Source: Candidatus Omnitrophota bacterium
GTDB lineage: Bacteria > Omnitrophota > Gorgyraeia > JACOVV01
Assembly: GCA_016177145.1 (NCBI GenBank)
Contig: JACOVV010000206.1
Span: 1-19,540 of the forward strand
Direction of reading: 5' to 3'
DNA: 19,540 nt
Shown here: piece after piece, positions 11,356-15,791 of the stretch
Position numbering within the stretch: the first letter of the stretch is position 1
How the letters are laid out: each line of letters opens with the position of its first letter
Program-made: the position numbers and the translations under genes
Notes under the pieces: generated by a model
Databases searched by the model: none
Told to the model about the DNA's origin: nothing
What the model saw: only the letters and a program-made list of their open reading frames with translations

Positions 11356-11384
11356 GTAGGGGCAACCCCCTGTGGTTGCCCCTA
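11356..11384. repeat. GTAGGGGC-family palindrome, intergenic purH-folC
   Basis: Arms TAGGGGCAACC (11357-11367) and GGTTGCCCCTA (11374-11384) are perfect complements with a 6-nt loop CCCTGT. The left tip is GTAGGGGC, as in the elements within pabB and purH. It lies just upstream of folC, and its right half overlaps a spurious upstream TTG start. It could form an RNA hairpin between purH and folC, but no T-run follows. Confidence 0.9.
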
Positions 11385-11401
11385 TACCCAATATTGAATT
11401 T

Positions 11402-11427
11402 GGGCGGGCACGGGGGCCCGCCCCTAC
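11402..11427. repeat. GTAGGGGC-family palindrome, GC-rich variant
   Basis: Arms GGGCGGGC (11402-11409) and GCCCGCCC (11416-11423) flank a 6-nt loop. The right end reads GCCCCTAC, the family tip; the left tip is degenerate. It lies 17 nt from the first intergenic copy and 17 nt from the purH stop. The pair therefore occupies much of the 105-nt purH-folC gap. Confidence 0.8.
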
Positions 11428-11443
11428 GATTCCGTCAATGGTG

Positions 11444-13096
11444 TCAATGCTTAAAATGCCTCACACCCGTAAACACCATCGCGATTCCAGCGTCATCCGC
11501 TTTCGCAATGACCTCTGGGTCTTTAATGGAACCTCCGGGCTGGACAATACAACTGATGCCCGCCAGAGAAGCGACCTGAACGTTATCCGGCATCGGGAAG
11601 AAAGCGTCGCTGGCAAGGACTGACCCGACGGCTCGATGCCCGGCTTTTCTCACCGCGATCCGGACCGATTCCACCCGTGAGGGTTGGCCCCCGCAAATCC
11701 CAACGGTCTTGGTCCCCTGGCAAATGACAATGGCGTTGGAGCGGGTCCATTTGGCTACTTTCCAGGTAAAGAGAGTCGATTTCAATTGCTCCGGTGTCGG
11801 ATGCCGCTGGGTGACCACCTTCCATTGTTTGGGATCTTCGATGGTGGTATCACACTCTTGAACCAATAATCCTCCATGGATTCGTTTGACGTCCCATGTT
11901 TCTGTTTTTTTAGGGGAATTACGTAGGGGCGAATGATCATTCGCCCCTACGATGACGCGAAGGTTTTTCTTTTGTCTTAAAATTTCCAGCGCCTTGTCAG
12001 AATAACCCGGCGCAACCAAACACTCCAAGAACCCGGCATCCACAATCGCTTTGGCGGTCTTGTCGTCAACCAAACGATTGAACCCGATGATTCCGCCAAA
12101 CGCTGAAACGGGGTCTGTGTCAAAGGCCTCCTGGAACGCCTGAGTCAGCGTCGGCGCTTGAGAAACCCCGCAGGGACTCATATGTTTGATGACCGCCGCT
12201 GTCGGTTCTTTAAATTCGCTGACTAGCGCCAGAGCGGCGTCGAGATCAAGAAGATTGTTGAAGGATAATTCTTTCCCGTGCAATTGTTTTAATGGGGGCG
12301 CAATAAATTGCGCCCCTACATCTTCACTATACCAGGCGGCCTTCTGGTGAGGGTTTTCACCGTAACGAAGATCCTGAACCTTCGTGGCGTGGATTGAAAT
12401 GTGTTGTGGGAAAAGGGACTGTCCCCCCGCTGGAGGCGGGCAGGCGAAGGGGACTGTCCCCAAAATGGCGTTGCCCCTACCTGTAAGGTATTGCGCGATC
12501 GCCTTATCATAGGAAGCGGTCGTCATAAACGCCCCGACCGCCCAACGACTCGCCGTCTCTTTGCTAACCGCCCCTTTATTTTTCTTTAACTCCGCGGCTA
12601 AATCCGCGTACTGCACCGGATCACTCACCACTACAACATGTTCGTGATTCTTCGCGGCGCTTCTGAGCAACGTCACACCACCAATGTCAATCTGCTCAAT
12701 CGCCTCCTGGAAAATTTTATTCTTTTTTCTGCCCCCTGAACCCTGAACCCTGTCCCCTTTTTTAACTGTCTCCTCAAACGGATACAAATTCACCACCACC
12801 AAATCAATCGGCTCGATCTTATATTTCTTAAGCTCGGCTTGGTCTTTTTTATCAGCTCGGCGGGCTAGAATTCCTCCATGCACTTTAGGATGCAATGTCT
12901 TAACTCTCCCCCCCAGCATCTCTGGAGATGCTGTATAGTCGGCAATCTCAGTACAAGGGACTTTTGATTTCTTCAAAAGAGCGGCAGTTCCACCGGTGGA
13001 TAAAATAGAAATTTTCAGTTTTACTAATTCCCTGGCCAGTTCGACAATTTCTGTTTTATCAGAAACGCTCAGCAGCGCCTTTTTAATTTTGATCAT
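11444..13096 (-). CDS. purH: Bifunctional AICAR formyltransferase / IMP cyclohydrolase with several insertions
   Basis: PurH catalyses the last two steps of IMP synthesis: 10-formyl-THF-dependent formylation of AICAR, then ring closure. The N-terminal MGS-like cyclohydrolase domain starts KKALLSVSDKTEIVELA and carries LGGRVKTLHPKVHGGILARR. The AICAR transformylase domain includes LRYGENPHQKAAWY, GKELSFNNLLDLDAAL, IKHMSPCGVS and the C-terminal FTGVRHFKH. At 550 residues it is longer than typical PurH (about 510-530). The excess falls at four places made of repeats: about residues 115-126 (heptad tract), 206-228 (composite palindrome), 260-269 and 382-391 (GTAGGGGC palindromes). All keep the frame and lie between conserved motifs. 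The ATG at 13096 overlaps the end of the aminotransferase gene by 14 nt. Confidence 0.96.
   Translation of the reverse strand: MIKIKKALLSVSDKTEIVELARELVKLKISILSTGGTAALLKKSKVPCTEIADYTASPEMLGGRVKTLHPKVHGGILARRADKKDQAELKKYKIEPIDLVVVNLYPFEETVKKGDRVQGSGGRKKNKIFQEAIEQIDIGGVTLLRSAAKNHEHVVVVSDPVQYADLAAELKKNKGAVSKETASRWAVGAFMTTASYDKAIAQYLTGRGNAILGTVPFACPPPAGGQSLFPQHISIHATKVQDLRYGENPHQKAAWYSEDVGAQFIAPPLKQLHGKELSFNNLLDLDAALALVSEFKEPTAAVIKHMSPCGVSQAPTLTQAFQEAFDTDPVSAFGGIIGFNRLVDDKTAKAIVDAGFLECLVAPGYSDKALEILRQKKNLRVIVGANDHSPLRNSPKKTETWDVKRIHGGLLVQECDTTIEDPKQWKVVTQRHPTPEQLKSTLFTWKVAKWTRSNAIVICQGTKTVGICGGQPSRVESVRIAVRKAGHRAVGSVLASDAFFPMPDNVQVASLAGISCIVQPGGSIKDPEVIAKADDAGIAMVFTGVRHFKH
11922..11951. repeat. 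Perfect 30-bp palindrome in purH (GTAGGGGC family)
   Basis: CGTAGGGGCGAATGA is followed directly by its exact complement, giving 15-bp arms with no loop. It is read in purH as VGANDHSPLR (residues about 382-391), between KKNLRVI and the conserved VKRIHGGLLVQ strand. The GTA-GGG-GCG frame is the same as in the pabB copies. Confidence 0.92.
12294..12319. repeat. GTAGGGGC-family palindrome in purH, partly degraded
   Basis: Arms GGGGCGCAAT (12295-12304) and ATTGCGCCCC (12307-12316) are exact complements with a 2-nt AA loop. The right tip is the family's GCCCCTAC and the left tip is mutated to TGGGGGC. On the coding strand it is read GTA-GGG-GCG as VGAQFIAPP, just before LKQLHGKELSFNN. Mutation only at one tip suggests an older insertion. 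Confidence 0.85.
12409..12480. repeat. Composite palindromic element in purH
   Basis: Several pieces lie side by side. GGGACTGTCCC is at 12415-12425 and GGGGACTGTCCCC at 12449-12461. Between them is an inner hairpin, CCCGC (12426-12430) pairing with GCGGG (12436-12440). A solo arm CGTTGCCCCTAC, matching the right arm of the GTAGGGGCAAC-type palindrome near folC, is at 12469-12480. The region encodes about residues 206-228 of PurH (GNAILGTVPFACPPPAGGQS), between the end of a helix and the conserved LRYGENPHQ. It looks like one element nested in or beside another. Confidence 0.8.
12732..12757. repeat. Heptanucleotide tandem repeat (CCCTGAA type) within purH
   Basis: On the plus strand CCCTGAA, CCCTGAA, CCCTGTC follow one another at 12734-12754, flanked by C runs. 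In PurH it encodes about RVQGSGGR, within an apparent insertion of roughly 12 residues between VVNLYPFEET and the conserved EAIEQIDIGG. The frame is kept. Confidence 0.8.
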
Positions 13097-14151: not shown

Positions 14152-14387
14152 TGTCCGGACGCCTTCCCCGTATTACCGGCAAACAACTTGTTCGCAGTCT
14201 CACCAAGACGGGTTTTCTTGTTAAACGAATCGAAGGAAGCCATTACATCCTTCAGAAGCAATTCCCAGAAGGAACAGTAACGATTCCCGTTCCTGTTCAC
14301 GCCGGCAAAGTCATTAAACCTGGCTTGATGAATCATATCCTTCGGAAAGCACGCCTGAGTCCAGAAGAACTGCATAGATTCCTATAA
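14151..14387 (+). CDS. hicA: HicA-family mRNA interferase toxin
   Basis: HicA is a small dsRBD-like ribonuclease that cleaves mRNA when not held by HicB. The 78 residues start at ATG 14151, with GAGG 10 nt upstream; a TTG at 14148 just before it is in frame but less likely. The family signature is complete: PRITGKQLVRSLTKTGF, then GSHYIL with the catalytic H31, and VPVHAGKVIKPGLMNHILRK. The gene ends 6 nt inside the 3' end of pabB on the opposite strand, so there is no spare sequence between the toxin-antitoxin unit and the folate genes. Confidence 0.93.
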   Translation: MSGRLPRITGKQLVRSLTKTGFLVKRIEGSHYILQKQFPEGTVTIPVPVHAGKVIKPGLMNHILRKARLSPEELHRFL

Positions 14388-15791
14388 GTATAATGCCTCG
14401 GATTTCTGTTCTACATTTCTCATTGACTGCACCGCTTCCAGCAGCGCCTGCCCTTTGCGAAGGGTTTCTTCGTATTCCTTCTCCGGGATCGAATCGGCCA
14501 CGATGCCGGCACCGACTTGAATGAAAAGTTTTCCTTGAGAAACCACGAATGTCCGGATCACGATGTTGAGATCCATCTCCCCGGAAAAACTCAAATAGCC
14601 GACTGAACCGGTATATAATCCTCGCTTCACCGGTTCCAATTCCTCAATAATCTCCATCGCGCGAATCTTGGGAGTTCCTGTAATCGTCCCCCCTGGGAAA
14701 GCGGCTTCAACCGCATCCAGCCGGTCACGATCCTTTCGCAACCGCCCCTGGACATTGGAGACAATGTGGCGGACATGCGAGTATTCCTCGACCGTCATCA
14801 ATTCATTCACTTCCACTGAGCCATACTCACACACTCTCCCTAAATCGTTTCGCTCCAAATCCATCAACATCACGTGTTCAGCCCGCTCCTTGGGACTCAG
14901 CAATAACTCTTCCGCGTAGCGGTGATCCATGAACCTGTTTTGAGCGACCCGGGGCCGGGTTCCGGCAATGGGGCGAGTTTCCACTAAATCCCCCTGTACT
15001 CTTAGAAGGCGTTCCGGTGAACATCCGGCAATTGTGACTTTGCTCATCGGCAGATAGCAGGCAAAGGGAGATGGATTAATTTCCCGCAACCGGAGATAAA
15101 GTAGGGGCACATTGCAATGTGCCCCTACCGGATCGCCGCTGATATCGGCGGAAATCCTTTGAGAAAGATTGACCTGGTAGATATCGCCTGCGGCGATGTA
15201 TTCCTTGGCGCGGAGAACCATTTGCTCGAAATGGCTCTGGGTCATTTCGAATTGGATGTTGCTGATATTCGGGCGTAGGGGCACATTGCAATGTGCCCCT
15301 ACGTTCATCTTACACAACAGCATTTCATGACAAGAAAATAATCTTTTAATAATTTCCCGATATTCTTTCTCCCCCTGTTCTCCCGGATAAAACGGTTCCG
15401 CCACCCAGCACCGGTTCTCCTGGTGATCCCAACTGATGACCGTCTGGACCTGTACCCATTCACTCTCCCCCTCATAACTAAAATAACCAATTAATCCCGC
15501 TGTAAACGGAGGCAGTCCAGGAGAAGCTGCCGCTTTTTTCTGATTTAAAATCTCTCTTAGTTGATTGACTTCATGAAACGTATCAATTGGATTCAACCCG
15601 ATAAAAGAATACCGCCCGGTATTGGGATGAAACCGGGCGCTGTCGAGCCAGTAACTGCGGACTTGATTTTCCTGGAGAGATAAAAAAACTATTGCTGGGT
15701 CAGGCGCTGGGGAGATCTCCGCTGAGATAACAACCCCCTCCCGTCTTTTTTGAATCCGCTGTATCTCCTGCCATGAAGGACAAATTACCAC
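14382..15791 (-). CDS. pabB: Aminodeoxychorismate synthase component I, with two identical inserts
   Basis: PabB converts chorismate and ammonia (from PabA) to aminodeoxychorismate, the precursor of p-aminobenzoate. The 469 residues include the N-terminal half (YWLDSARFHPNTGRYSFIG) and the chorismate-binding domain: GDIYQVNLSQRI, REINPSPFACYLP, ETRPIAGTRPR, ERNDLGRVCEYGSVEV, GGTITGTPKIRAMEIIEELEP. MDLNIVIRT favours PabB over TrpE. VGAHCNVPL occurs twice, at 164-172 and 222-230, each encoded by the same 28-bp palindrome. The second interrupts the normally continuous GDP...LYLRLREINP segment. The start is a GTG at 15791 overlapping the lipoprotein stop by 7 nt, with no earlier ATG and no clear Shine-Dalgarno. 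No pabA is in the window. Confidence 0.93.
   Translation of the reverse strand: MVICPSWQEIQRIQKRREGVVISAEISPAPDPAIVFLSLQENQVRSYWLDSARFHPNTGRYSFIGLNPIDTFHEVNQLREILNQKKAAASPGLPPFTAGLIGYFSYEGESEWVQVQTVISWDHQENRCWVAEPFYPGEQGEKEYREIIKRLFSCHEMLLCKMNVGAHCNVPLRPNISNIQFEMTQSHFEQMVLRAKEYIAAGDIYQVNLSQRISADISGDPVGAHCNVPLLYLRLREINPSPFACYLPMSKVTIAGCSPERLLRVQGDLVETRPIAGTRPRVAQNRFMDHRYAEELLLSPKERAEHVMLMDLERNDLGRVCEYGSVEVNELMTVEEYSHVRHIVSNVQGRLRKDRDRLDAVEAAFPGGTITGTPKIRAMEIIEELEPVKRGLYTGSVGYLSFSGEMDLNIVIRTFVVSQGKLFIQVGAGIVADSIPEKEYEETLRKGQALLEAVQSMRNVEQKSEALYL
15101..15128. repeat. Perfect 28-bp palindrome in pabB, copy A (GTAGGGGC family)
   Basis: GTAGGGGCACATTG is followed at once by its exact complement. 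It is identical over 28 bp to copy B, 146 bp away. It is read in frame as VGAHCNVPLL, between GDP and LYLRLREINP of the chorismate-binding domain. Confidence 0.95.
15274..15303. repeat. Perfect 30-bp palindrome in pabB, copy B (GTAGGGGC family)
   Basis: The 28-bp core at 15275-15302 is identical to copy A, and one more flanking base pair (C and G) extends the symmetry to 30 bp. It is read as VGAHCNVPLR at residues 164-173, in the linker between the N-terminal and chorismate-binding parts of PabB. Confidence 0.95.

Follow-up and report, generated by a model that had tools for sequence, protein, structure and literature searches.

Symmetric GTAG-ended palindromes read in frame within pabB and other protein genes of an Omnitrophota genome: a probable variant of REP elements

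The GTAG REP superfamily consists of palindromes of 20–40 bp that carry a GTAG end and occur in many copies, and the available part of Di Nocera et al. (2013; PMC3733652) already describes such repeats inside genes, most of the GTAG ones in the verrucomicrobium O. terrae. According to the same text, two REPs can occur in one gene, the inserts are thought to be neutral in loops, dimers or groups account for over half of the inserts in genes, and different REPs are found at about the same recB site in two Xanthomonas species. In the accessible portion of Bertels and Rainey (2011; PMC3116915), the mobile unit is the REPIN, an inverted pair of REPs, which becomes one long palindrome with a single REP when its spacer is lost. 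The TnpAREP of E. coli requires GTAG and cleaves at CT on the 5′ or 3′ side of the REP; enzymes from other groups can still bind when GTAG is altered, and one of them cleaves at CA as well (PMC8266576, available sections). Rickettsia palindromic elements (RPEs) were first reported at about 150 bp, while RPE-4 and RPE-6 are small and belong to the CGTC class (PMC10969869 and PMC3733652, as far as available).

The window analysed here is the whole stretch of 19,540 nucleotides of a Candidatus Omnitrophota bacterium (contig JACOVV010000206.1). Its pabB gene (aminodeoxychorismate/anthranilate synthase component I; 14382..15791, minus strand), identified by its ORF, Pfam and PDB relatives, encodes a PabB/TrpE-like product (Chorismate_bind, E 1.2e-90) and hosts two inserts. 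An earlier note on this DNA had described two identical 28-bp palindromes in frame in this gene, both read as VGAHCNVPL, and this was confirmed with exact coordinates. The 28-mer GTAGGGGCACATTGCAATGTGCCCCTAC, a perfect palindrome, occurs at 15275–15302, encoding residues 164–172 in the linker between the N-domain and the chorismate-binding domain, and, separated by 146 bp, at 15101–15128, encoding residues 222–230 in the beta-alpha turn GDP|LYLRL. Both copies are read in the same phase 0 (GTA GGG GCA CAT TGC AAT GTG CCC CTA C..). The 28-mer was absent from 200 dinucleotide shuffles of the window, even with up to three mismatches allowed.

Comparison with relatives supported the proposed in-frame acquisition. 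At the GDP|LYLRL site, each of the 11 aligned PabB relatives shows a pair of native residues where nine are found here, a net gain of seven, and at the linker site VGAHCNVPL is missing from 10 of 10 relatives covering it (P0007 does not cover this site). A contig scan with PabB listed the best 80 of 588 relatives, with 36–55% identity. The refuting condition named in the note, distant homologs with identical peptides at identical positions, was not seen among the 11 aligned relatives. In a structure predicted with 12 sequences (mean pLDDT 74.6, pTM 0.78), confidence falls below 50 only at residues 163–171, 220–226 and 458–469, the last being the C-terminal tail. By this prediction the two inserts lie in loops, namely the interdomain linker and a strand-helix turn, in agreement with the suggestion that the enzyme tolerates these peptides. 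The PabB linker of near relatives (alignment A1, columns 201–270) carries other repeat-like peptides, such as NLPPHPALSPLWGERGRVRG in P0004 and IASVPLASLGVLRNDN in P0005 and in the sister genome; in P0002 it contains VGADLCVRPKEGTHTGVPL, which we take from the protein sequence to be a REP pair. Several repeat families thus seem to invade the same place.

The sister genome, whose comparison had also been proposed, lacks the inserts of pabB, GatB and SAM_HAT; no RtcB was detected in the sister, whose genome is about 71% complete. The idea of a simple insertion had to be modified. Measured against near relatives that have no insert, GatB and SAM_HAT show a net gain of six residues each, PurH site a one of five and a GT9 protein one of a single residue, and GuaA site 1 has gained six relative to P0123, so that together with the +7 at GDP|LYLRL the gain is smaller than the 9–10 residues of the element at all six readable sites; because these are alignment readings in variable loops of roughly 68–84% identity, it is uncertain how many bases were lost. 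Inserting 28 or 29 bases and nothing else would not keep the frame in any case. Judged from the aligned sequences, native residues appear to have been replaced rather than cleanly interrupted, as at GDP|LYLRL where two were exchanged, which is unusual.

The genome that holds the window (G000; 1,234,550 bases in 237 contigs, 60.36% complete) contains 76 exact palindromes of the form GTAGGGGC(0-30)GCCCCTAC and none of the reversed control pattern. The note had treated the palindromes as a two-copy oddity of one gene; its own proposal of a genome search revealed a genome-wide family instead, with two further members in purH. Recent or ongoing copying, as the note had concluded, is supported in its copying part by 13 exact copies of the pabB 28-mer in this genome. 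With a looser rule applied to the DNA fetched around the listed sites (145,394 bases), we obtained 88 sites, a few of which are looped REPs or decayed copies. Both ends, GTAGGGGC and GCCCCTAC, are kept at 74 of them, and 62 of these 74 are perfect or have a mismatch only at an odd centre. The two-ended sites are 27, 28 or 29 bp long (3, 40 and 31 sites, respectively), within the 20–40 bp of many-copy REPs. The body GGGGCGGGTTTNAAACCCGCCCC was found 36 times in the genome and GGGGCACATTGCAATGTGCCCC at 15 of the 88 sites; further groups are GAATNATNATTC and GAACGGCCGTTC. Eight of the 88 sites are located at contig ends (C10, C49, C60, C61, C96, C120, C127 and C179), and some contigs begin exactly at GTAG, suggesting that the repeats break the assembly.

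Across the class the pattern is patchy and was detected in 57 of 384 genomes, the reversed control occurring in eight genomes, once in each. G088, a member of another family of the class, contains 104 such palindromes; at its loci L249–L279 many of them have flanks in common and may belong to a larger composite. The exact pabB 28-mer was absent from the viral collection IMG/VR. The pattern GTAGGGGC(10-14)GCCCCTAC was present there in at least 120 viral stretches (loci L280–L359 among those listed), and phages might carry such palindromes between hosts. By title and the start of the abstract, our literature search returned no paper on palindromic repeats in Omnitrophota.

Sites were scored as intragenic when the ORF spanned 130 codons or more and 50 or more of these lay on either side of the palindrome, and those within 150 bases of the end of the analysed DNA were set aside (16 of 88 in G000, 2 of 12 in the sister genome). 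By this rule 39 of 72 scorable sites are internal to ORFs in G000 (34 in phase 0 and five in phase 2), as are seven of ten in the sister genome (five and two, respectively), while in G088 only one of the 35 palindromes fetched from its 104 is internal. The intragenic habit of this genus is unusual compared with the palindrome-rich G088. Since one of the three phases is closed by TAG (phase 1), two phases are open. Of the 58 listed ORFs, 40 were searched against Pfam, and 38 of these matched a family; with pabB, the table holds 39 ORFs. Inside one Pfam domain or between domains of one protein we counted 27 sites, 25 in phase 0 and two in phase 2 (one-sided binomial p 2.8e-6, assuming equal odds). 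Sites on the N side of domains (15 rows; ten in phase 0, five in phase 2) and on the C side (seven rows; five and two) were kept out of this count and include one site counted in two ORFs; outside the domains the bias is less marked, at 15 to 7. A PurH loop of relatives offers clear examples of phase-2 inserts. We ascribe the 25:2 bias to selection on the peptide, with an insertion bias as the alternative. Host proteins include the GMP synthase GuaA, PurH and PabB (two inserts each), GatB, RtcB, RecG, LpxK, CobS, a FabD-like transferase and a HAM1 protein. Named genomes among the best GuaA matches are mostly Candidatus Omnitrophota/Omnitrophica MAGs, in keeping with this phylum. The flanks of the G000 sites showed no clean CT rule as a target motif; there is a weak preference for a pyrimidine before GTAG, with some excess of AC and AT.

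The purH gene of the window (AICARFT/IMPCHase; 11444..13096, minus strand), identified by its ORF, Pfam and PDB relatives, carries two inserts and one remnant. A perfect 28-bp palindrome with the core GAATGATCATTC at 11923..11950 is read in the VGA phase as VGANDHSPL, a peptide restricted to the PurH of the window among 11 aligned rows. Another palindrome, with one decayed end, at about 12292..12319 is read in the same phase as VGAQFIAPPL. The corresponding peptide (V/A)GA(Q/R)FIAPP(L/F) is common to the PurH of the window and three relatives (P0242, P0243 and P0247; four of 11 rows), and the insert is thus probably old. At the loop preceding FPQH, a lone arm GTAGGGGC is retained (12473–12480, minus strand), followed in reading direction by a GGGACTGTCCCC-type repeat; in the sister genome the corresponding position is occupied by a full palindrome. 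This second repeat type contains GGGACTGTCCCC twice, in frame, at 12415–12461 and adjoins the lone arm. Its peptide ILGTVPFACPPP.GGQS is also present in P0243, and in P0245 (alignment A3) VGAMPFDSAQGKHMPPL resembles one repeat nested within a palindrome peptide. In total, GTAGGGGC occurs ten times in the window compared with a mean of 0.33 in shuffles.

At several orthologous sites the position of the insert is common while the core differs. In the PurH loop before FPQH, the peptides RGTARRAPT (P0244), RGEACLAPT (P0246, the sister genome) and RGERPFAPT (P0247) are each obtained by reading a different palindrome core in phase 2; the sister's is taken from DNA and the other two are read back from the peptide. 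At PurH site b, the FIAPP-type peptide is replaced by VGAAGGHSPL in the sister genome and by VGVGCALPL in P0244. GuaA site 2 reads VGARCNVPL in G000; P0123 has VGANNYSPL at the same codon, P0122 a degenerate GGHGGPPL, and P0124–P0126 have no insert. Upstream of their Pfam matches, a UDG-like protein has the core ACATGGCCATGT here and GTATTGCAATAC in the sister genome, each with an extra half arm on opposite sides, and one GT9 site has GAATGATCATTC here and GAATCATTATTC in the sister genome.

These differing cores may reflect exchange, repeated insertion at one spot or in-place drift. In the last case the cores would have diverged without exchange with other copies, a point change in one arm being transferred to the other by template switching at the hairpin. 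This is possible, if on the doubtful side: GAATGATCATTC and GAATCATTATTC of the GT9 site belong to the same subfamily, and asymmetric intermediates exist, with 11 GTAG-ended sites showing one bad pair, but VGANNYSPL of P0123 and RGERPFAPT of P0247, both read back from protein, are readings of GAATAATTATTC and GAACGGCCGTTC, subfamilies that are found elsewhere. More speculatively, the double-tagged REPs could be exchangeable cassettes whose core is swapped between subfamilies while position and phase stay fixed, giving essential enzymes of sister species different peptides in the same loop; a RAYT (REP-associated tyrosine transposase) that cuts at the tags and swaps hairpins would do so. We regard this as rather unlikely.

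Kinship to GTAG REPs is indicated by neighbouring elements. In the gap between purH and the next gene, the window contains a looped GTAG REP (GTAG-GGGCAACCCCCTGTGGTTGCCC; 11356..11381, plus strand) and a second one in opposite orientation (GTAG-GGGCGGGCCCCCGTGCCCGCCC; 11402..11427, minus strand), forming an inverted pair. The former overlaps the predicted start of the neighbouring gene, which is presumably folC-like. The fetched loci of G000 contain 41 single-tag hairpins of the type GTAG-GGGC..loop..GCCC, of which six are internal by the ORF rule, 29 are not and six lie near ends; this sample is centred on the symmetric palindromes and hence non-random. In these 41 elements GTAG is unpaired, as expected of GTAG REPs, whereas in the symmetric palindromes it is paired with CTAC; the pabB palindromes are therefore a variant that would work like a GTAG REP rather than plain members. 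Two inverted REPs with a spacer, the definition of a REPIN, are present at 11356–11427 but not in the 28-mers, which have no spacer.

RAYT genes (Y1_Tnp) were not found in G000, which is 60% complete, and no GTAGGGGC lies within 1.5 kb of the single RAYT of the sister genome. Inverted GTAGGGGC REPs enclose two RAYT genes of G088, with spans of 518 and 533 bp. In 12 palindrome-bearing relatives there are 47 Y1_Tnp matches; among the 30 loci inspected, these two in G088 are the only ones tightly enclosed by a pair, eight have sites elsewhere in the locus, and 20 lack GTAGGGGC and GCCCCTAC. RAYT flanks at 20 loci of relatives showed no GTAGGGGC-type palindrome and a single GTAG...CTAC palindrome of another type (L030). 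Y1_Tnp matches occur in 23 of 29 genomes of the class and are equally common in relatives without palindromes, so that they do not track the pattern. A GTAG...CTAC palindrome, with GTAG and CT on each strand, would make a compact TnpAREP substrate.

Taken together, we consider it probable, with roughly three chances in four, that the palindromes are GTAG-type REPs in a symmetric, double-tagged and loopless form, spread by copying and tolerated in loops. This reading starts from an observed family, its copy number, its open reading through real genes and its absence from relatives, and supposes RAYT mobility, selection against the other phase and neutrality. The element would consist of GTAG, a self-complementary body and CTAC, each strand thus bearing a GTAG tag and a CT beside the stem. 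Such small non-autonomous elements would most likely be mobilised in trans by a RAYT acting on the folded single strand. A copy that has entered a gene would be retained only where it leaves the frame open and falls in a loop or linker; because the palindrome is perfect, either orientation gives the same peptide, which, judging from sequence, is probably a tolerated passenger.

The analogy to the Rickettsia elements, which the note had named as the closest, holds for the way of working, that is, in-frame palindromes in many unrelated genes, and the lack of a detected RAYT in the 60% complete G000 would fit an independent selfish element without any RAYT or REP link that spreads by replication slippage or template switching. 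Such an origin is nevertheless improbable. The palindromes have GTAG/CTAC ends and share their loci with canonical GTAG REPs, including the inverted pair of the window, which points to the GTAG REP superfamily as the closest kin. In G088 two RAYT genes are flanked by such REPs; the small intragenic RPE-4 and RPE-6 are grouped with CGTC-class repeats of R. conorii in the available text of PMC3733652. A role in the mRNA, where a stable hairpin in the coding region tunes translation or decay, is less probable still: the 28-mer alone folds at about -21 kcal/mol, but the hosts are unrelated and a non-coding function leaves the 25 to 2 phase bias unexplained.

That the peptides are useful, for instance as Cys-His metal sites or regulatory loops, and are kept by selection at chosen sites is very unlikely. 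The VGA-FIAPP peptide in four of 11 PurH rows and the UDG and one GT9 site common to the sister genome indicate that inserts can persist, yet the peptide often differs between species at common sites, only some cores encode Cys or His, the hosts are unrelated proteins and predicted order is low at the PabB inserts. An assembly artefact, through chimeric joins or copied repeats in a fragmented MAG, is hardly credible despite the eight sites at contig ends. The flanks of the pabB and purH inserts both continue the same protein as in relatives, on one contig, and the sister, a separate genome record, also has inserts (seven of ten scorable sites internal). The observation is real, and its kind is known.

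If the interpretation as symmetric GTAG REPs is true, the term 'extragenic' fails for this genus, and an element of less than 30 bp steadily supplies core enzymes with new loops. Sister species would then provide natural replicates with a different peptide at the same site of the same enzyme, and the long-standing problem posed by the Rickettsia elements, how selfish DNA is taken up into proteins, would become testable with enzymes differing by one cassette. VGAGFKPAPT- or VGANNYSPL-like peptides in proteins of such MAGs may be repeat-derived.

With the Rickettsia elements the palindromes share an in-frame location in many unrelated protein genes of one genus, here at 27 sites inside or between Pfam domains. 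They differ in the host phylum and in having GTAG/CTAC rather than CGTC ends, a comparison based on the description of RPEs. The small dispersed repeats of cyanobacteria, with units of about 20–30 bp found genome-wide, are similar by description. Unlike REPINs, the palindromes have no spacer and are located in coding sequence; by analogy, the 28-mer may be a collapsed REPIN. The closest likeness is to GTAG REPs as described in the available part of PMC3733652: size, GTAG end, copy number, intragenic cases, two copies per gene and differing REPs per site. As intragenic GTAG REPs are already in print there, the palindromes represent a variant of those. In the accessible parts of the REP and RPE literature searched, we found no description of the symmetric double-tagged form. 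What sets the palindromes apart from the published GTAG REPs is a GTAG at either end that takes part in pairing, the lack of a fixed loop, an intragenic position for more than half of the sites scored, the dominance of one phase, and inserts that are mostly single units of 28–29 bp. The double-ended form, the intragenic density and the turnover at fixed gene positions are what is unusual in this genus.
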